Assembly (NCBI GenBank): GCA_021828805.1
Contig: JAJZCZ010000014.1
Span: forward strand, 1-33,975
Direction: 5' to 3'
Source of the DNA: Nitrospirota bacterium
GTDB taxonomy: Bacteria; Nitrospirota; Leptospirillia; Leptospirillales; Leptospirillaceae
DNA length: 33,975 bases
Part shown: positions 15,571 through 26,844 of the stretch, piece after piece
Layout: every line of letters begins with the position of its first letter
How positions within the stretch are numbered: position 1 is the first letter of the stretch
Position numbers and translations under genes: made by a program
The notes under the pieces: generated by a model
Told to the model about the DNA's origin: nothing
Seen by the model: the letters and a program-made list of their open reading frames with translations, nothing else
The model's database searches: none

Positions 15571-15646
15571 GGTGAGTGTAGCTCAAGGGCAGAGCACTGG
15601 ACTGTGGCTCCAGGGGTTGGGGGTTCGAAACCCCTCACTCACCCCA
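15571..15646 (+). tRNA. tRNA-His (anticodon GTG)
   Basis: A full cloverleaf folds here. The acceptor strands GTGAGTG and CACTCAC pair, with an extra G at position -1 opposite the discriminator C, the hallmark of tRNA-His. The D arm is AGCTCAAGGGCAGAGC-like. The anticodon stem is CTGGA/TCCAG with loop CTGTGGC, anticodon GTG at 15604-15606. The T arm holds TTCGAAA. CCA is encoded (15644-15646). Confidence 0.97.
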
Positions 15647-15763: not shown

Positions 15764-18700
15764 TTATGTCTCAAGAAGACGCCGGGCCCGAACCACAAGA
15801 GGCAGATCCTCCCCCCCGGAGAGCCTCCCGAGAAGGGCGGCCAGCCTCGTCCGATCCTCACGCCCCAGGGCCACCAGTTCAACCTCGGCCATCAGAGCGT
15901 ACCAGAGAGCGCCCGTCTCCTCCGCCTGCTTCCTCGCCGCCTCAAAGAGCCCCTTGGCCCTCTCCCGAGCCTTCCCGGGCTCTTTTTGCAGAAGAGCCTG
16001 CCCCTCGACCACCAGAAAGAGGGGGTCAAAGACCTGTGTCCCGGTTCGTCCGCCTTTCTCCCTCCCGAAACGGGCCACCTCGATCGCCTTGTCCCAATGC
16101 CCGACCTTGAGGGCCAGCTCGGCGTGGATCGACAGAAAAATAGGACTGACCCCCGGCAGCATTTCCCGGATCGCCATCACCAGCTCTTCGGCCTCCATGG
16201 CCGTCCCGGGAGAGGGATCACACCACAGCAGCGCCAGACGAAGAATCTCCTCCCACATATGAAGTCCCGACTCCTCCGCCAGACTCAACGACTCCTGGGC
16301 CAGCGTCCGGGCGGCCGCGACATCATGGGCCATACAGCGGGAATAGGTGGCGAAAACACCCAGGAAAACCCGGGAGCGGGGAAGCCGGAGAATATCGTCG
16401 AGCCCTCGCCCTTCCTCAAGGATGGTACGGGACTCCTGGATTTTCCCCTGAAGCTGGCAGGTAAATCCCAGATAGGAATGCGCGAGAACAGGGGGAGACT
16501 CCGTGAGATTCTCAAATGATGGATCCTCCTCCCAGGGGTGGTGGGCAACCTCAGTGCGAATCGCGGAAAGCGCGGCATAGGCCCGCTCGAGATCTCCCTT
16601 CCAGAAGAGGGCCGTCCCGCCGACACAGGCCGCCCAGAGACTGGAGCCTGCGCCCTCGTTTGTCCGGGGAAGGGAGTCGAGCCTTTCAAGAGTCCAGGTG
16701 GGGCCGTAGAGACCCGATCCAACCCCGACCAGAATATGGGAAAGCCGGTGCTCAAGGGGAGAGCCCGGATGCTTGCGGACGAGCTCCTTTGCCTTCTGGC
16801 CCAGCCTCTCCGATGCGGGGGAGCCATACCCGAAGACGACATTGGCGATCCGGACCATGGAGAGCAGAAGCCGGAGGATCCGGGTTTCAATGTCGGGGGA
16901 GGAGGGCTCTGACTCAAGAAGAGCCACGGCCTTCCCGAAGTGGTCGAGCGCGATCCGGTAGGCCCCCAGGGCCACGGCCCGGTCTCCGGCGCTGACAAAG
17001 GGGGCCACGGCCTCGGAGGAGCGTCCGGCTTTCTCCAGATGCTCCCCCAGAATTTCCGGCTGGCGGGAGACCCGGGAGGGGAATTTCTCCCGAAGAACCT
17101 CTGCGAGCACCTGGTGGATCTCCCGTTGAATGGCGTCCGGAAGGGAGTTCAGGATCCCCTCCCGAAGGAGCGCATGGCAAAAGCGGTAGGCCGGATCGGG
17201 GAGAAGGCCTTCGGCTTCAAGAATCTTATGGCTCAGGAGATCTTCAATCCAGCGGTCTGTGGTGGTCCCGTCGGCGGGAAGTCCCGCATAGCGCTCCGTC
17301 GCCCGTAACAGGAGAGGCCAGTCGAGGCTTTGACCGAGGCAAGCCGCCACCTTCGCCATCGTCCGGCTCTCCCCCAGCGATCCGGTCCGGGAGGAGAGAA
17401 GCTCTTTGAGGCTTACGGGAATATCGGCGCTCCCGCCAGACAGCGTGCCCGACAACACCAGCTCCCGCAGATAAAGCGGGATCCCTCCGCCCCGGTCGAT
17501 ACCAGCCTTAAGGGCCGGTGGAGAAAAGGCCGCGGGAGCGAGCGACTCGATCATCTCCCGGCTCTCGGCCCGGGAGAGCGCGGAAAGCCGGAGGATCTCC
17601 TCCGGAGGCGGAAGCCCCATCTTGCGGAGGGTTTTCTCCTCCCGGGCGGTCAGCACAAGCAAGGCATGGCTTCCCCGAAGGGCCACGATGGTTTTTTTCA
17701 AAAGCTCTGTCGTGTTCTGATCCATCCAGTGGAGGTCTTCCACGGCGATCAGAAAGGGGCGGAGGGATCTCCAGCTCAAAATGGAGAGCATCAGGGAGTC
17801 GACCCGCCGCCGGAAACTTTCCGGGGAAAGGATTTCAAGCTCTTCGGACCAGGGACCCTCCCCGCAGAGCAGATGAAGAAAGAGAAAGACATTTTCTCCA
17901 AGGGGCTGCCCGGTGGAGAGAAGGTAGCGCTCGATACGGTATCGGGCCTCCTTCGGCGAGGTCCGCTCTTCGATGCCCACATGGCTTCGAAGAAAACGGA
18001 TCACGGAGGAGTAGGGGCTCTCCGGATCTCCCGGGAGACAAAAGATCTGCCGGACTCCCCCTTCTCCCGGGACCTTCCGGAAAAGGCGGATAAATTCGTT
18101 CAAGAGCGCCGACTTTCCGATCCCGGCCTCCCCCGTGATCCACAGGGTCCGAAGCCCGCTCTTTTCCTGGATCTCTTTCAGAAGCTTTTCCATCCGGACC
18201 TTCTCCGCCTTCCGGCCGACAAAGGTCACCTCAGGCTGACCGATCTGGGGAAGGAGCTCCCCGATCAGGAAAAGGGGCCGCTCGGTGCTCTCGGGAGATT
18301 CGGGAAGAGAGGCCCCTTTCCTCACCCGGAAGAAACGGTCGACCAGCCGGACCGTCTCCCATGTCGCGACGATCTCCCCGGGAGGACTCTGCCGCACGAT
18401 CCGGTCGACTTCACGGATCCGGTCACCCACCGGATCGGGATCTCCCGACGAGAGGTCGGCCAGGCCCTCTCCGGTGAGAATGGCCAGGCGAACCTCTCCC
18501 GGGCGAAAGTGGGCGTCGGCCCGGGAGAGCGCCCGGATCTCCCGGGCGGCCAGAACCGCACGCCGCGTGGGGTCCTCCAGGCTTCTGAAGAACCCGAAGA
18601 TCCCGTGGAAACCCTCTCCGGTCCCGCGTCGCACCTCCCCGCCGAGCCCCCGGACAAGCGCCCCCACCTTGTCCCGGAAAGACGCCTGAGTCTCCCGGAC

Positions 18701-19375
18701 CTCTTCGGGAGAGCGGCCCTCCGGAAGGCCGGAAAAAAGAATCGAGAGGAAGGTGATCTGACGGATCTCCCGGAGGGGTTGTCCCGGGGGGAAAGGCAGA
18801 GAGGGGACGGCAAAAGAGACGGAGGAGAGCTGACGTTCGAGAGCCTCCTGACGGAGAGCGAGCCGTGCCCGAAAGCCTACGACCCAGTCCCGGAAGCCTC
18901 CCGCAGACGAAAAGGAGCATCCCTCGAGAAAGGACCGGAGACCCATCTCTCTCTGGGCTTCGATCCTCTCCCGGCACCGGAGGCACTCGGCAGAAAGGTG
19001 GAGGAGGGGGCATCCGGGAGGGGGATCCTCCCGGAGATAGCGCCGGAGATCGACCGGCTCCTCGTCCCAGGGCAGGTCGACCGCTCTCCAGCCGATGGCG
19101 TGGGAGGTCGCCTTAAAAAGGCCGGACACTCCCAGGCGGGTCTCGACATTGTAGAGGGCGGTTGAGAGATTGGCGCGGGCCGACCGGGGGTCTTTGTCCG
19201 GCCAGAACAGGGAGGCTATGTCCTTTCTCGGGCAGGGACCGGGCTGGGCCGCAAGGTAGGACAGGAGGGTGACAGGACGGTCGAGGCGGCCTTCCCACAC
19301 GATATCCTCCCCCCGGCATATCCGGGGAGGTCCCAAGAGAGAAATGGTCAGGGAGGGATCACAAAAAGAGCCCAT
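15764..19375 (-). CDS. Giant SARP (BTAD)-cyclase-like-AAA+-TPR transcriptional regulator
   Basis: This is a protein of about 1203 residues. Residues about 8-95 form a SARP-type DNA-binding region (ISLLGPPRI, LLSYLAAQPGPCPRKDIASLFWP, ARANLSTALYNVETRLG). Residues about 210-345 resemble a class III nucleotide cyclase (QITFLSILFSG, GGEVRRGTGEGFHGIFGFF). The first metal-binding Asp is missing and the second site reads GEG, so catalysis is unlikely. An AAA_16-type ATPase follows, with FVGRKAE (about 385), Walker A GEAGIGKS (about 415) and Walker B LIAVEDLHWMDQ (about 545). From about 820 to the end are helical TPR-like repeats. It probably senses a ligand and activates transcription. I chose ATG 19375; TTG 19435 is also open. 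Its target may be itself or the divergent gene. Confidence 0.87.
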   Translation of the reverse strand: MGSFCDPSLTISLLGPPRICRGEDIVWEGRLDRPVTLLSYLAAQPGPCPRKDIASLFWPDKDPRSARANLSTALYNVETRLGVSGLFKATSHAIGWRAVDLPWDEEPVDLRRYLREDPPPGCPLLHLSAECLRCRERIEAQREMGLRSFLEGCSFSSAGGFRDWVVGFRARLALRQEALERQLSSVSFAVPSLPFPPGQPLREIRQITFLSILFSGLPEGRSPEEVRETQASFRDKVGALVRGLGGEVRRGTGEGFHGIFGFFRSLEDPTRRAVLAAREIRALSRADAHFRPGEVRLAILTGEGLADLSSGDPDPVGDRIREVDRIVRQSPPGEIVATWETVRLVDRFFRVRKGASLPESPESTERPLFLIGELLPQIGQPEVTFVGRKAEKVRMEKLLKEIQEKSGLRTLWITGEAGIGKSALLNEFIRLFRKVPGEGGVRQIFCLPGDPESPYSSVIRFLRSHVGIEERTSPKEARYRIERYLLSTGQPLGENVFLFLHLLCGEGPWSEELEILSPESFRRRVDSLMLSILSWRSLRPFLIAVEDLHWMDQNTTELLKKTIVALRGSHALLVLTAREEKTLRKMGLPPPEEILRLSALSRAESREMIESLAPAAFSPPALKAGIDRGGGIPLYLRELVLSGTLSGGSADIPVSLKELLSSRTGSLGESRTMAKVAACLGQSLDWPLLLRATERYAGLPADGTTTDRWIEDLLSHKILEAEGLLPDPAYRFCHALLREGILNSLPDAIQREIHQVLAEVLREKFPSRVSRQPEILGEHLEKAGRSSEAVAPFVSAGDRAVALGAYRIALDHFGKAVALLESEPSSPDIETRILRLLLSMVRIANVVFGYGSPASERLGQKAKELVRKHPGSPLEHRLSHILVGVGSGLYGPTWTLERLDSLPRTNEGAGSSLWAACVGGTALFWKGDLERAYAALSAIRTEVAHHPWEEDPSFENLTESPPVLAHSYLGFTCQLQGKIQESRTILEEGRGLDDILRLPRSRVFLGVFATYSRCMAHDVAAARTLAQESLSLAEESGLHMWEEILRLALLWCDPSPGTAMEAEELVMAIREMLPGVSPIFLSIHAELALKVGHWDKAIEVARFGREKGGRTGTQVFDPLFLVVEGQALLQKEPGKARERAKGLFEAARKQAEETGALWYALMAEVELVALGREDRTRLAALLGRLSGGEDLPLVVRARRLLET

Positions 19376-19426
19376 TGTGATTGTTGACTCCACCAGTCGG
19401 AGGGTTGAAGGAAGCCGATGTAAATG

Positions 19427-19451
19427 AAGTCTCAAAGTAAAGTTGAGACTT
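19427..19451. promoter_or_regulatory. Inverted repeat in the leader of the SARP-type regulator gene
   Basis: AAGTCTCAA (19427-19435) and TTGAGACTT (19443-19451) form a perfect 9-bp inverted repeat with a 7-bp spacer. It falls between the predicted transcription start (about 19469) and the ATG (19375) of the regulator. It could be an operator for autoregulation or an mRNA hairpin. Confidence 0.55.
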
Positions 19452-20529: not shown

Positions 20530-21327
20530 CTAGAAGTCGATGGCGAAGAATGTCCGGGTGTTTTGAAGGACCTGATGAGAAAAGGCTGTCGGATCTTCCC
20601 CCCGGGCGAAGGCCGCGACACGGAGGGTTTCGGGAAGGTAGGCGGGCTGGTTGGTCTTGCCGCGATAGGGAACGGGAGCCAGGTAGGGACAATCGGTTTC
20701 AAGGAGGATCCGGTCCTCCGGAATCTCCGGAAGGATCTCCCGGAGAGAGGCCGCGTTCTTGAAGGTCACAATACCCGAAAAAGAGAGGTAGAAGCCCCGG
20801 TCGAGGGCTCCGAAGGCCTCCTCCCGGCTTCCCGTGAAGCAGTGGAAGACGCCCCGGCGGCCGGACAGGCGCTCGGAGTCCAGGAGGGCAAAAAGGGGCT
20901 CGAAGGCCTCCCGGCAGTGGAGGATCAGGGGAAGGTCGGTCTCCCGGGCAAGCGCGATGTGGGCGCGAAGCGACGCCGCCTGAACCTCAAGGGGGGTCTC
21001 CTCGAAATCCGCCCGGTCGATGCCTGTTTCGCCGATGCCGACCACCCGGGGAGCGGCGGCAAGCAAGGCGAGCTCTTCGCGGGTAGCGGAGGTGAGGGTC
21101 GACGCCTCGGAGGGGTGGATGCCGACCGTGGCCCAGACGCCGGGGAGACGGGCGGCCAGATCGATCGACTCCCGGGAGCTGGCAATCCGGGTCCCGATGT
21201 TCACCAGGCCGGCAAGCCCTCCCTCCCGGGCCTTCCGGTAGGCCTCGTCGGCGGGCATCTCCGGAGGAAGAAGGTTAAGGTGGGCGTGGGTATCAAAGAA
21301 AGGGAGCACGACGTCGGAGGAGGCCAT
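20530..21327 (-). CDS. tatD: TatD-family metal-dependent hydrolase/DNase
   Basis: This is a 265-residue TIM-barrel amidohydrolase-type nuclease. The metal ligands are in place: FDTHAHLN (N terminus), GIGETGID (Glu), LILHCREA (His), VFHCFTGS (His) and LLETDCPYLAP (Asp). Family members are 3'-5' exonucleases of single-stranded DNA/RNA. It begins six bases after metG; metS-yabD (tatD) adjacency is familiar from Firmicutes. No strong SD is visible before the ATG, so translation may depend on coupling to metG. Confidence 0.93.
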   Translation of the reverse strand: MASSDVVLPFFDTHAHLNLLPPEMPADEAYRKAREGGLAGLVNIGTRIASSRESIDLAARLPGVWATVGIHPSEASTLTSATREELALLAAAPRVVGIGETGIDRADFEETPLEVQAASLRAHIALARETDLPLILHCREAFEPLFALLDSERLSGRRGVFHCFTGSREEAFGALDRGFYLSFSGIVTFKNAASLREILPEIPEDRILLETDCPYLAPVPYRGKTNQPAYLPETLRVAAFARGEDPTAFSHQVLQNTRTFFAIDF

Positions 21328-21333
21328 CGCAGA

Positions 21334-23379
21334 CTACCGGATACCGGCGCCGGGAGGAGCCTCCCGGTCGGGCGTCAGAAGGGAGACCCCGTCGGGGACG
21401 GTGGCGGCCAGGAGCATCCCCTGGGAGGTGACCCCCATGAGGGTGGCCGGGGCGAGGTTGGTCACCACCACCACGGTCTTGCCCACCAGGCTCTCCGGAG
21501 GATAGGAGCCGGCGATCCCCGCCACAACCGTCCGGGGAGCGGGCTCTCCGATATCAACGGCGAGCTTCAGCAGCTTCTTTGATTTGGGAACAGCCACCGC
21601 CTCCCGGATGATCCCCGTAGCCAGACGGAGCTTCGAGAAGTCGTCGTAGGTGATCTGGGGGGCGTCCGGAGCCGCAGGGGCCGGGGAGGGCTTCTCCTGT
21701 CCGGCCGGAGAAGAGCCGGAAGATCCGTCCTGGCCCCCGGAGGGGAGAGATGCCGGGGCTGACGGGTCGGAGGAAGACGCCCTCTCTTTTTGCGCCTTTC
21801 GGGGCGCGCGCTCGGGCTCATCGGAAAGAAGAGCCCCGGAGGCGTCCCGGCGGGGGAAGAGCGGGGCCCCCGGACGGGGAGAATAGGCGTCGGCCTGGCC
21901 GAAGGTCCCGTGAACGGGCAGGGAAAGGGCGCCCGTTCCCGGACAGTCGAGGATCTCAAGGATCCGGTCGGCGGTCGCGGGAAGATAGGGGGTCAGGTGG
22001 ACGGCGACGAGGCGGAGGCCTTCAAGCAGATCGTAGAGAACCTCGGAGAGCTCGGCGGCCTTCTCCGGATCGCGGGCCAGGACCCAGGGGGCCTTGAGGT
22101 CGACGGTGCGGTTTAAGAAGCCCACGAACTCCCAGAGGGTGGCCAGAGCGCGATGGAACTCCAGGGAGACCGTCCGTGACACGACCTCCGGAAGAAGCCG
22201 GGCGGACTCACTCTCCACCTCCCGCCGACCCCCTCCCGCCGGACGGGGGATCCCCCCCTCGGGAAAGAACTTCACGGCCATGGCGGCGACCCGGGAGAGA
22301 AGGTTGCCCAGGTCGTTGGCAAGGTCCCGGTTGATCCGGTTGATGAGCGCGTCCCGGGAAAAGTCCACATCCTGACCGAACTGCCCCTCCCGGAGAAGAA
22401 AATAGCGGGTGGCATCGGCTCCGAAGGTCTCCACGAGGCCCACCGGATCCACGACATTGCCCCGGCTCTTCGACATCTTCTGGCCGTCGACCGTCCACCA
22501 GCCGTGGGCGAAGATCATGCGCGGGGGCGGGAGCTCGAGGGCCCGGAGAAGAATCGGCCAGTAGACGGCATGGGTGGTCAGAATGTCTTTGCCGACGATG
22601 TGGGTCCCCGGCCAGAGACGGGCGAGGCCGTCGTCGGGGGTGGCGCCGGTGGAGCGGGGAACGGTGATGTAGTTGAGCAGGGCATCGAACCAGACATAGG
22701 TGACATAGTCGGGGGCGAAGGGCAGGGGGATGCCCCAGGGAACCCGGCTCTTCGGACGGGAGATGCAGAGATCCCCCAGGGGCTTCCTGAGAAAGCCCAT
22801 CACCTCGTTGTAACGGGACTCCGGACGCACCGCCTCCGGGTGGGATTCATAGTGGGAGACCAGCCAGTCCTGATAGCCGCTCATGCGGAAGAAGTAGTTC
22901 GTCTCGCTGATCCGCTCGACCGGACGACGGCATTCGGGACAGAGCCCCTCTTCCACGTCCTTGTCGGTCCAGAACCTCTCGTCGGGAAGACAGTACCACC
23001 CCTCGTAGGCTCCCTCGTAAATGTCCCCTTTTTCCTGAAGCCGCGCCAGGGCGTCACGCACTCCCGACACATGGCGGGGCTGGGTCGTCCGGACGAAGTC
23101 GTCGTTCGAGATTCCCAGCTTCTCCCAGAGCTCCCGGAAACGGGGGAGGATCCGGTCCACGTAAACCTGGGGAGGAAGGTTGTGGCGTTCGGCGCTTTGC
23201 CAGACCTTCTGGCCGTGCTCGTCGGTTCCCGTCAGAAAAAAGACGGGCTCTCCCAGGAGACGATGGGTTCGGGCCAGCACATCGGCGGCAACGGTGGTAT
23301 AGGCATGTCCGATGTGGGGAATATCGTTGACATAGTAGATGGGGGTGGTGAGGTAGAACCAGGGGGAGCGGTCAGACAC
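21334..23379 (-). CDS. metG: Methionyl-tRNA synthetase with C-terminal tRNA-binding domain
   Basis: This 681-residue class I synthetase charges tRNA-Met. The HIGH-type motif is NDIPHIGHAYT (about residues 18-28) and KMSKS lies in GQKMSKSRGN (about 306). A zinc knuckle is in GLCPECRRPVE. A Pro/Ser/Ala-rich linker (about residues 510-570) joins the anticodon-binding part to an OB-fold tRNA-binding domain (FSKLRLATGIIREA, VVTNLAPATLMGVTSQGMLLAA). The GTG start at 23379 overlaps the end of ricT by eight bases (GTGTCTGA), with AAAGGA about ten bases upstream. Confidence 0.95.
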   Translation of the reverse strand: MSDRSPWFYLTTPIYYVNDIPHIGHAYTTVAADVLARTHRLLGEPVFFLTGTDEHGQKVWQSAERHNLPPQVYVDRILPRFRELWEKLGISNDDFVRTTQPRHVSGVRDALARLQEKGDIYEGAYEGWYCLPDERFWTDKDVEEGLCPECRRPVERISETNYFFRMSGYQDWLVSHYESHPEAVRPESRYNEVMGFLRKPLGDLCISRPKSRVPWGIPLPFAPDYVTYVWFDALLNYITVPRSTGATPDDGLARLWPGTHIVGKDILTTHAVYWPILLRALELPPPRMIFAHGWWTVDGQKMSKSRGNVVDPVGLVETFGADATRYFLLREGQFGQDVDFSRDALINRINRDLANDLGNLLSRVAAMAVKFFPEGGIPRPAGGGRREVESESARLLPEVVSRTVSLEFHRALATLWEFVGFLNRTVDLKAPWVLARDPEKAAELSEVLYDLLEGLRLVAVHLTPYLPATADRILEILDCPGTGALSLPVHGTFGQADAYSPRPGAPLFPRRDASGALLSDEPERAPRKAQKERASSSDPSAPASLPSGGQDGSSGSSPAGQEKPSPAPAAPDAPQITYDDFSKLRLATGIIREAVAVPKSKKLLKLAVDIGEPAPRTVVAGIAGSYPPESLVGKTVVVVTNLAPATLMGVTSQGMLLAATVPDGVSLLTPDREAPPGAGIR

Positions 23380-24373
23380 GGGGAGAAGAATCCTTTCGAT
23401 GGCGGTTGTCCGGGCCGCCTGATCCTCGTCGGGAGGAGGAGGGAGCGGCCGGAGAGGCAGAGGGGGAGGGCTCCGCTCCGCGATCTAAAGAGACGGTCTT
23501 CCATTCGGGCTCCGGAGCGGCCTCCTTCGCGGCGGACGCATTGCGCGAGCCGCAGGACTTGCGGCAGGAATGTCCCGTTTCCGATTCCCCTGACGCGGAA
23601 GAACAACCCTCTCCGCCCTCCGACGTGTCGAAGGAAAGACAGCACTTCAGACGGCCGCACATCCCGGTCGACCGGAGGGACGCCGGTTCGGCATCCGCCT
23701 CCCGGGCCATGCGCGTCGAGATCGTCCGGAAGGACTTCAGAAAGCCCGAACAACAGAGGCTCTTTCCGCAGGAACCCACGCCATCGAGGAGGGCGGTGTA
23801 CTCCCGGGGGCTGATCTGCCGGAGCTCAACCCGGCCCCGGTACTTGCCGTGGATGTCCTTGAGAAGCTCCCGGAAGTCGACCCGCCCTTCGGCGGTGTAG
23901 TAGAGAAGAAAGTCGTTGGCGGCGAAGTTGGCCACCGATTCGACGAAGACCATGGAGAGCTGTCGCGCGGCCGCCCGTTCCCTGACGAAGGTGAGGAGGC
24001 CGTTTTCACGGGAGGCGAGGGAGGCGAGGCGGGTCTCGTCTTCGGGGGTCAGACGGCGGATGAGCCGGAACTCCGGAAGGGTCGACAAAAGGGAGGCCTC
24101 AACAATCCGGGGATTTTCCACGAGGACCATCGGAGCCGGACCCAGCCGGCTCTCTCCCAGAACCTTTTCCTGGCGGGAAAAGGGAGGCTCCTCTCCGTCC
24201 GTGGCGCGGGGGGCCCAGAGGGGAATATTGGGGCCGATATTTTTCATCTGGGCTGTCAGGATCCAGACGGGACCTTCTCGGGGTCCGCCGTCCGGAACCG
24301 ACCCGGGGGGCCGTCCCGGAGAGGCGATCGCGGTCGCCGTGGAGGCCCTGTATGTGGAAGATCGAGCACGCAT
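23372..24373 (-). CDS. ricT: PSP1-domain protein (RicT/YaaT-like)
   Basis: The 333-residue protein carries the PSP1 C-terminal block with its cysteines: GVGSCGKSLCCSGFL (about residues 196-210) and STGMCGRLKCCLSFD (about 234-248), the signature of YaaT/RicT. In B. subtilis RicT works with RicA and RicF as an iron-sulphur-binding complex that steers RNase Y. Position next to holB and tmk is conserved. The N-terminal 40 residues are low-complexity, and a start at the Met about 43 codons in is possible. The tail past residue 250 is Ser/Pro-rich and unlike other members. Confidence 0.83.
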   Translation of the reverse strand: MRARSSTYRASTATAIASPGRPPGSVPDGGPREGPVWILTAQMKNIGPNIPLWAPRATDGEEPPFSRQEKVLGESRLGPAPMVLVENPRIVEASLLSTLPEFRLIRRLTPEDETRLASLASRENGLLTFVRERAAARQLSMVFVESVANFAANDFLLYYTAEGRVDFRELLKDIHGKYRGRVELRQISPREYTALLDGVGSCGKSLCCSGFLKSFRTISTRMAREADAEPASLRSTGMCGRLKCCLSFDTSEGGEGCSSASGESETGHSCRKSCGSRNASAAKEAAPEPEWKTVSLDRGAEPSPSASPAAPSSSRRGSGGPDNRHRKDSSPRV

Positions 24374-24375
24374 CT

Positions 24376-25395
24376 TTATTTATCACTCCCTTTCGGAGAA
24401 AAAATCTCCCCGATCCACCCCAGAAACTGCTCGAGGGCAAGCCCACGGTTGATATTGTGGACCGAAATCCTTCGCATTTCTCCTATCTTATCATGGAGAC
24501 TTCCCCGGAGAAAGTCCGGTCCCTCATGGGCATAAAGGGCGGGAAGAGCGCTCTCCCGCCATTCCGGAAGAGGAGAAAGCCCTCCCGCCACCCTCTCGGC
24601 CGAGAGAAGCAGCCTTTCAAAAGCGTCGAGAAAGATGTCAAACCCCTCTTTTTCGGCCAGGACGGGAAAGGCCTCCGCCACCGCCGCAAAGTCGATCCGG
24701 CCCCGGGGGCCGAGCGCTCCCAGAAAGGTCGCCACCCGGGAGAGAGGGTCGGAGAGAGGCGAGTCCACAAGGGTCAGGAGCCGTCCCGCCGAGCCGCCGG
24801 AGAGCGTCACGGCCTTTTCGAGCTCCTCCGGAGGACTCCCGGGCCGGCACTCCCGGACAATGGCAGTCAGATCGCCGTCGGAGAGGGGGGAGAAGCGGAC
24901 CTTGAGAAGCCGGGAGAGAAGGGTGGGAAGGAGACGGTCGGGAGAGGGGGACAGGAGAAAGAACAGGAGATTTTCCGAGGGCTCCTCCAGCGATTTCAGA
25001 AGGCTGTTGGAGGCCTCGGGAGTCAGCCGGTGGACCTCGTCGAGAAGGGCGATCCTCACCGGGGAGACAAGCGGGGCCTCAAGCGTCTGCCGGAGAAGCT
25101 CCCGGACCGAATCGATCCCGATGGACTGGGTCTCCCCCGGCTCGAGGACGTGAAAATCCGGGTGGTTCGAAAGGGCGGTCCGGCAGGAGAAGCAGTGCCC
25201 GCAGGGAGCGGTATCCCCGGGCCCGGAGCAGAGAATCTGGCGCGCCAGGGCGAGCGTCGCCGTCTGCTTGCCGACCCCCTCCGGTCCCCACAACAAAATC
25301 GCACCAGAGCGAAGCCCTCCGGAGAGAATCTCCCGGAGCCGGGCGATCGCCCGGTCCTGCCCCCGGACGGCGGAAAGCGGCGTCTCCCCCTTCAC
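24376..25395 (-). CDS. holB: DNA polymerase III delta' subunit
   Basis: This 339-residue AAA+ clamp-loader subunit has a P-loop variant (LLWGPEGVGKQTA), a four-Cys zinc module (CSG....CGHCFSC, about residues 56-71), the ALLDEVHRLTPEASNSLLKSLEEP region (Walker B-like DEVH) and the SRLLKVRF sensor-1-type segment. It serves replication by helping load the beta clamp. The GTG start overlaps the tmk stop (GTGA at 25392-25395), and ricT begins two bases after its stop, so the three are co-translated. Confidence 0.92.
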   Translation of the reverse strand: MKGETPLSAVRGQDRAIARLREILSGGLRSGAILLWGPEGVGKQTATLALARQILCSGPGDTAPCGHCFSCRTALSNHPDFHVLEPGETQSIGIDSVRELLRQTLEAPLVSPVRIALLDEVHRLTPEASNSLLKSLEEPSENLLFFLLSPSPDRLLPTLLSRLLKVRFSPLSDGDLTAIVRECRPGSPPEELEKAVTLSGGSAGRLLTLVDSPLSDPLSRVATFLGALGPRGRIDFAAVAEAFPVLAEKEGFDIFLDAFERLLLSAERVAGGLSPLPEWRESALPALYAHEGPDFLRGSLHDKIGEMRRISVHNINRGLALEQFLGWIGEIFSPKGSDK

Positions 25396-26129
25396 GCCCT
25401 CATCCCCTCCGGTAAAAACCTCCCGGGGAAGCGCCGGCAGAGCGTTTCCCAGATCTGTTCTTCAAGCTGCCCCGGATCGTGGGTGGCATCGAGAACAACG
25501 GTGCGGGAGCTATGAATGCGGGCCAGTTCAAGATAGCCGGCCCGGACCCGCTCGAAATAGGCCGCGCCCAGAAGTTCGAAGCGGGTCGGCCCGTCCCCGC
25601 GCTCAAGGACCCGGCGGGAGATCTCGGCGACCGGAAGATCGAGCAGAAAGGTGAGATCCGGAACGAGCCCTCCCAGGGCGGCGTCGTTCAAGGTCGAGAC
25701 GAACTCGCGGGAGAGGCCTCCCCCGAAGGACTGGTAGGCCACGGTGGCGTCGGAGAGGCGGTCGGAGAGGACGGTTTTCCCCGCACGAAGCTCGGGAAGA
25801 AGGAGGGTCTTCACATGCATCACCCGGTCGGCCTCGAAGAGAAAAAGTTCAGCCTCCGGGGCCAGGGGCAGGGCGGGGTCGAGAAGGATCTCCCGAAGCC
25901 GCGCTCCCGCGGCCGTTCCCCCCGGCTCCTTTGTCAGGACCGACGGATGGGCGAGGCCATCGAGGCGCGCCTTGAGGTTTCTTGCCTGGGTGGACTTTCC
26001 CGAGCCATCCATCCCCTCGAAGACGATCAGGATCCCGGAGCCGGCGACGGGTCTCGCCAGGGGGCCCGCCGGGGAATCGGGGGAAAGGGGGGCTTTTTCA
26101 GGAGAAAGACCGGAAAGAAAAGGATTCAT
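25392..26129 (-). CDS. tmk: Thymidylate kinase
   Basis: Tmk phosphorylates dTMP to dTDP. The P-loop FEGMDGSGKST, TKEPGGTAAGARLREILLD (DR-type loop region) and SDRLSDATVAYQSFGGGL are all present. The frame is open up to 26318, but the upstream part is low-complexity. The ATG at 26129 gives 245 residues, still with about 30 extra residues before the core compared with the usual 205-215. No clear SD precedes it. It heads the operon tmk-holB-ricT-metG-tatD-NYN. Confidence 0.93.
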   Translation of the reverse strand: MNPFLSGLSPEKAPLSPDSPAGPLARPVAGSGILIVFEGMDGSGKSTQARNLKARLDGLAHPSVLTKEPGGTAAGARLREILLDPALPLAPEAELFLFEADRVMHVKTLLLPELRAGKTVLSDRLSDATVAYQSFGGGLSREFVSTLNDAALGGLVPDLTFLLDLPVAEISRRVLERGDGPTRFELLGAAYFERVRAGYLELARIHSSRTVVLDATHDPGQLEEQIWETLCRRFPGRFLPEGMRA

Positions 26130-26388
26130 GGGCGACCCGGATGTGTCCCTCGTCGTCCGGTGGCGGCGGGAGGGAGAAAGTGAACATGAGGATCGGCTCC
26201 CTGCCCTCCGGCGTTCGGTGGGGCAGAGCCGGCCAGGGCCGGTCGGGAACAATACGGAGGCTCCCACGAGGCCGGAGACAAAAAAATCAGCGACAAAACG
26301 CCCGCAACAAAACGCCAAAATAAACAGGATAAGAGATAAAAGACCAGGGACAAAAATCTAGAGAATAAGACACCAGAAACAAAACCCG
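26130..26388. other. Gene-free stretch upstream of tmk, with a weak candidate promoter
   Basis: Bases 26280-26400 are A-rich on + (T-rich on -), with several TTTTGT-type repeats read on -. On the - strand TTGTCC (26348-26353) and TATCCT (26326-26331), 16 bp apart and 4/6 each, could drive the tmk operon with a leader of about 190 nt. A hydrophobic frame crosses the region but has no SD and begins inside a terminator, so I do not call it. Confidence 0.3.
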
Positions 26389-26438
26389 GAAAAAAAAGAA
26401 AGACCGGTTTCCGGAAGGGCTCACCTTCCTGAAACCGG
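26389..26438 (-). terminator. Strong rho-independent terminator (- strand)
   Basis: Read on -, a 15-bp stem (26438-26424 with 26418-26404, one mismatch), a five-base loop and TCTTTCTTTTTTTT follow in order. It is placed about 160 bp after the 29-residue peptide gene and insulates it from the tmk operon. Confidence 0.85.
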
Positions 26439-26595
26439 CCGATTCCCGAGCGGGTCACGCCTTCACATCCCGGAAGTTTTATAAATAAGGGATGATTGAC
26501 AGGCTAAAAGGACAAAAGGCTCCGGGAGGCAGAGGCGCTTTGCCCGGGAGGGGTCCGGTCCGGAAAAACACCGGCCGGGAGTCCCCCGAAGAAGC

Positions 26596-26685
26596 TTAGT
26601 GCTCCTTGATCTGATTTCCGGCGAGAAGGGCTGCCAGAACGATGGTGCCGACCAGGAGAGAAACCATCCAATGCATGTCGCCCAT
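26596..26685 (-). CDS. 29-residue hydrophobic membrane peptide, unknown
   Basis: A short frame with the attributes of a real gene encodes about 29 residues: MGDMHWMV, then the apolar run SLLVGTIVLAALLAG, then a polar tail NQIKEH. It has an SD (AAGGGGA, six bases before the ATG), one predicted transmembrane helix, and its own transcription unit: a 7-bp hairpin in the leader and a strong downstream terminator on the same strand. Such peptides often attach to larger membrane complexes (CydX, KdpF types), but I cannot assign it to a family. It may have been missed by standard gene calling because of its length. Confidence 0.62.
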   Translation of the reverse strand: MGDMHWMVSLLVGTIVLAALLAGNQIKEH

Positions 26686-26713
26686 TGTTTTCCCCTTTCT
26701 TTTGATGTGGCCC

Positions 26714-26731
26714 GGGGGCGGTAACGCCCCC
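26714..26731. promoter_or_regulatory. Leader hairpin upstream of the 29-residue peptide
   Basis: GGGGGCG (26714-26720) and CGCCCCC (26725-26731) pair perfectly around a four-base loop, 29 bp before the peptide's ATG. It lies between a poor candidate promoter (TTGCAT, 16 bp, TAAAAA on -, about 26750-26780) and the SD. It may be an operator or an RNA element. Confidence 0.4.
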
Positions 26732-26844
26732 TGGTTTGGTTAGGAAAGACAGGAACCCTTGAATTTTTATCCTTTTGGAAAGAAAATGCAAGAGGGCAAG
26801 ACAGAGAAACTTCAGCCCTCACGATCCCCCCCAAAAAACTACGG

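Follow-up and report, generated by a model that had tools for sequence, protein, structure and literature searches.

Some of the smallest bacterial genes encode membrane proteins with a single transmembrane (TM) helix. CydX, the small subunit of cytochrome bd oxidase, has a conserved Trp and, towards the end of its helix, a Glu, and several of the proteins AcrZ, CcoM, YohP and KdpF serve larger membrane proteins as subunits or regulators. Others are toxins, such as the 29-residue type I toxin TisB. Leptospirillum-type bacteria are known from acid mine drainage and bioleaching. PMC4325964 names two Leptospirillum species as the only non-Proteobacteria with CydX, making CydX the most natural candidate for a protein of this kind in the group. 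DinQ (PMC3567139) is a second type I toxin.

We analyzed a 33,975-nt stretch of DNA (hereafter, the window) from a member of the Leptospirillaceae, in which an earlier note had proposed an easily overlooked gene for a 29-residue TM peptide with its own transcription unit. The ORF, Shine-Dalgarno site, leader hairpin and terminator that it described are all found where it had put them (Table 1). The peptide contains one hydrophobic stretch, with a best 19-residue Kyte-Doolittle mean of 2.07, as expected for the single helix that had been claimed. The strong same-strand terminator, said to lie about 160 bp downstream, occupies the interval 156-194 nt past the peptide stop. The next gene in the same direction is tmk, and its ORF as listed is probably over-extended at the 5' end.

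Table 1. Features of the peptide gene and the gene row behind it (window positions)
Feature	Position	Strand	Description
Sigma70-type promoter	26764..26791	-	-35 TTGCAT, 16-nt spacer, -10 TAAAAA; 78 nt before ATG
5'-leader hairpin	26714..26731	-	GGGGGCGTTACCGCCCCC, GC; sequence reading and folding
Shine-Dalgarno	26691..26698	-	AAAGGGGA; 5 nt before peptide ATG; read from sequence
Peptide ORF	26596..26685	-	29 codons + TAA, MGDMHWMVSLLVGTIVLAALLAGNQIKEH; predicted single-pass membrane microprotein
Intrinsic terminator and T-run	26390..26440	-	stem 26440-26402, -26.2 kcal/mol
tmk (dTMP kinase)	25392..26318	-	next gene downstream of the peptide; TIGR00041, 147.4 bits from residue 95
holB, ricT, metG, tatD	20530..25395	-	remainder of the downstream gene row; NCBIfam matches; order identical in 11/11 genomes

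Elsewhere, a bacterial class A RNase P RNA is cut by the window start, which leaves its 3' part at 1-179. A 1223-residue ORF on the minus strand (15764-19435) adjoins tRNA-His at 15572-15646, and its only Pfam matches are an AAA_16 ATPase domain and a sub-threshold AAA_22. On the hisC side of the peptide, an ORF at 28907-29905 matches an IS630-like transposase with 51.2 bits, short of the cut-off at 100.

We searched for the peptide in the 21 available genomes of the family and found an intact frame in 11 of them (protein search, E up to 1). That search matched 12 genomes, the remaining match being G010, which we discarded as noise (E 0.394, with an internal stop). A profile search recovered the same 11 genomes at E values of 1.1e-19 to 1.4e-16, with the next match at 0.188. 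By both searches the peptide is single-copy in each genome above noise, and its orthologues span four genera. The search was also run phylum-wide over 395 genomes, comprising the 21 family members and 374 others, and 100 of these gave a match at E up to 0.5. Among the 374 other genomes, no match approached the true copies in E value; the strongest, at 5.5e-4, covers 18 positions inside a 126-residue frame and was rejected as noise, and the next stands at 0.0049. A DNA pattern scan of 84,980 species returned nine records, all among the 11 family genomes (the two outside these records are the window's own genome and G015), and the viral contigs searched held no match to the peptide.

The six congeners encode an identical 29 residues, save for one extra Gly in G006. 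Their ORFs differ at 12 columns, every one a third codon position, and all 14 base changes are synonymous, compared with 38% expected; random placement never gave an all-synonymous set in 20,000 trials, in a test that treats columns as independent, ignores kinship and removes the extra Gly codon of G006 before counting. Third-position variation of this kind is what the earlier note had named as proof of coding, and the check for stops or frameshifts in relatives, which it had named in advance as refuting, showed no internal stop in any of the 11 copies. Outside the genus, the peptides of three further genera retain 45-57% identity to that of the window, and ten residues are invariant in the seven distinct sequences: W6, S9, G13, V16, L20, N24, I26, K27, E28 and H29. 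Congener ORFs share 82-88 of 90 aligned bases (91-98%), whereas identity is 57-85% in the 80-nt leader and 55-82% in the 150 nt 3' of the stop, and the tmk and holB proteins of congeners are 53-87% identical to those of the window. Because change in the ORF is synonymous only and the ORF is better kept than its flanks and the neighboring proteins, selection acts on the peptide. With only 29 codons, the frame is short enough to have arisen by chance in an intergenic spacer, but the 11 intact orthologues, their common promoter (below) and the wholly synonymous changes refute this origin in practice and leave it a negligible probability. We conclude from these comparisons that the ORF is, with near certainty, a real coding gene, as conservation of the overlooked gene and its own promoter and terminator also supports.

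The peptide does not belong to any family that we could find. Pfam scans at E up to 10 gave no family for 3/3 and 6/6 of the peptide sequences submitted, and neither PADLOC nor a PDB profile search produced a match. A PDB phmmer search with a single peptide returned SecY chains at E 1.9-2.6, which, like the PHROG matches (best E 0.029), we took as generic hydrophobic similarity. In NCBIfam, one of three members scanned gave a sub-threshold match to TatA (NF003393, PRK04561; 14.2 bits, E 0.03). TatA has an amphipathic helix after its TM segment. This helix would start where the peptide ends, directly after the TM helix, and the score falls far below the cut-off of 104; TatA was therefore set aside.

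CydX is similar in kind: both have about 30 residues in a single helix, a conserved Trp and a Glu towards the helix end, and share the logic of an accessory subunit. Nevertheless, the peptide has no match to the CydX profile (YbgT_YccB, PF08173), lies beside tmk rather than cydAB, and occurs in genomes that have a separate, true CydX. The latter (48-51 bits, loci L122-L129) is present in eight of the 11 genomes, the same eight that have cydA, and in all eight the two genes share a contig and lie within 3 kb of each other. Neither cydA nor CydX was seen in the window's own incomplete genome. These eight CydX genes near cydA also add to the two Leptospirillum cases in PMC4325964. AcrZ, CcoM, YohP and KdpF are alike in size class and in having one hydrophobic helix, but the peptide differs in lacking a Pfam or PDB match and in being confined to one family. 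No description of the gene appears among the titles and abstract openings listed by the literature searches, and a term search of PMC10903887 gave no occurrence. Bacterial single-TM small membrane proteins are a kind of protein and share no common homology; their sequence hallmark, a short and conserved ORF predicted to form a single TM helix, is present here. By the libraries and searches used, the peptide is thus an undescribed microprotein family of this well-known kind.

The upstream region follows a common design. All 11 copies carry the pattern TTG[AC][AT]T, a spacer of exactly 16 nt and TA[AG]A[AC][AT] (TTGMWT/TARAMW), placed 72-107 nt before the start codon; this strict pattern, which was composed after the copies had been inspected, matched five of 11,000 upstream regions after shuffling. 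By eye, a purine-rich Shine-Dalgarno site also lies at about the same place in 11/11. Downstream, nine of the 11 copies have a hairpin with a T-run 3' of the stop, scored without a shuffle background, and the copies in G014 and G018 have no T-run terminator under this definition. The stem begins 81-166 nt past the stop. A generic scan reported neither the peptide promoter nor its terminator. It passed over the promoter because it accepts only -10 boxes that end in T, and the five terminator-like sites that it did report do not stand out clearly from the 2.7 (sd 2.0) obtained in shuffles. The conserved promoter and terminator nonetheless support the proposal of a separate transcription unit, as predicted from their sequences. 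The leader hairpin fared less well. It is present in the window, yet its folding is not exceptional: the z score of the window leader is -1.50, within the shuffles, and across the 11 leaders z ranges from -2.37 to +1.06, with a single value below -2.

Although the earlier note called the gene isolated, the genes behind it are fixed. The peptide precedes tmk-holB-ricT-metG-tatD on the same strand in 11/11 genomes (ten loci plus the window). The divergent neighbor in the window, hisC, was found adjacent in only three of the 11; at some of these loci the contig ends too soon to show this side well. A twelfth genome, G005, has the tmk block, and its contig ends before the position of the peptide. 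The nine remaining family genomes, which have no copy of the peptide, also lack ricT, metG and the canonical tmk in the assemblies examined; they have more distant tmk-like genes instead, except for G007, which has none. Since these neighbors are missing too, absence of the peptide in the nine is indistinguishable from missing data. An rpsL control for high expression failed, being found in just one of six genomes, which shows that conserved genes can drop out of these assemblies; serS was found in 19 of the 21. The gap around tmk, ricT and metG could be an assembly gap, a withheld stretch or a real relocation. G002, which is 96% complete, is among the nine assemblies lacking these three essential genes. 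Apart from canonical tmk, we also observed two adjacent, tandem thymidylate-kinase-like genes (G000:C105:34713-35824 and counterparts), a pair present in ten of the 11 genomes searched with PF02223 and absent from G007.

The distance from the end of the terminator stem to the likeliest tmk start is 52-68 nt in six genomes. Between the peptide stop and tmk, the strict promoter pattern occurs in 0/11 genomes. A looser pattern finds sites somewhere in this interval in 5/11, and those past the terminator and before tmk are two weak ones in the window, one in G013 and one in G015, which raises the possibility of a separate tmk promoter in the window species. For several genomes, read-through from the peptide promoter into the tmk operon is a fair supposition, and the peptide gene may head this operon with partial termination.

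Such an arrangement invites comparison with an attenuator, in which translation of the 29 codons would determine if transcription continues beyond the terminator into tmk-holB-ricT-metG-tatD. The invariable position upstream of tmk, the terminator between the two in 9/11 and the missing strict promoter before tmk would all suit a leader peptide. However, what is conserved is an amino acid sequence, with a TM helix and an invariant tail; the seven distinct aligned sequences contain no run of regulatory codons, and the terminator stem stands well past the stop in sequence that diverges among congeners. We therefore regard attenuation as unlikely. The earlier note had also suggested an sRNA in the 3' region, acting beside or instead of the coding function. 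In the window this region is GC-rich and can fold, and a short transcript ending at the terminator is predicted. Against a dual-function RNA, the 150 nt past the stop are much less conserved than the ORF, and the DNA match reaches the 3' region only in the two closest congeners. In three more distant congeners, synonymous codons are kept at 18 of 25 positions versus fractions of 0.54-0.61 in metG, and because this is just modestly better than in neighboring genes, no RNA function is called for. The peptide region has no Rfam match at gathering thresholds. An sRNA alone was rejected on the diverged 3' region, the lack of an Rfam match and the slight synonymous constraint, and a dual function seems to us very improbable. 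Judged by sequence identity and folding, the 3' region and the leader hairpin are too poorly conserved to support an sRNA.

A toxin of the type I toxin-antitoxin style, restrained by antisense RNA or by leader structure as for TisB, DinQ or Ldr, would share the size, the single hydrophobic TM helix and a foldable leader. Unlike these toxins, the peptide has no repeat copies and is invariant within its genus at a fixed place by a housekeeping operon. The generic scan saw no promoter-like site on either strand between 26000 and 27000, and with it no antisense one, although the same scan missed the sense promoter. The lack of a PADLOC match also speaks against a toxin, but weakly, since that library covers phage defense. 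All in all, we hold a toxin to be quite improbable.

The peptide itself offers a further indication of its role. AlphaFold models a 30-residue orthologue as one continuous helix over residues 2-29 (mean pLDDT 92.2), and the best 19-residue hydropathy mean in the 11 copies is 2.07-2.39; insertion into the membrane is very likely. Lysines are confined to the C-terminal end, where the invariant tail reads NKIKEH or NQIKEH, and by the positive-inside rule this points to an N-out, C-in topology. The invariant TM residues W6, S9, G13, V16, L20 and N24 deviate by no more than 47 degrees from one face of the helix, and the conservation moment is highest at 100 degrees per residue. A permutation test of this face gave P values of 0.029 (residues 6-24), 0.037 (6-23) and 0.13 (6-29), a weak signal drawn from four genera. 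Because the invariant residues share a face, we infer that this face packs against a fixed membrane partner, and docking of the peptide on such a partner is a reasoned proposal.

Overall, we lean toward the view that the gene encodes a family-specific, single-pass inner-membrane microprotein that has its own promoter and docks on a membrane partner through its conserved face. In this model, a protein of 28-30 residues specific to the Leptospirillum family would be expressed from the conserved promoter of its own gene, with tmk-holB-ricT-metG-tatD following. The terminator in between would probably stop most transcripts, in which case the cell would make an excess of the microprotein, and read-through past the terminator may help to feed the tmk operon. 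In the membrane, the invariant face would pack against a conserved partner while the IKEH tail would make a cytoplasmic contact, and the peptide could thereby act as a stabilizing or modulating accessory subunit of a membrane complex. More speculatively, and in our estimate improbably, it could be an indispensable subunit of a membrane complex found specifically in acidophilic iron oxidizers, such as their iron-oxidation electron chain, with its expression tied by the leaky terminator to an operon for DNA precursors and for replication and translation enzymes.

These results add a microprotein family that passes a strict coding test, with zero residue replacements among six congeners, and illustrate how metagenome-assembled genomes can yield such tiny genes. 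For the Leptospirillum-type bacteria, in which alone it was seen, this one-helix protein is a concrete starting point for finding a membrane complex of the lineage.
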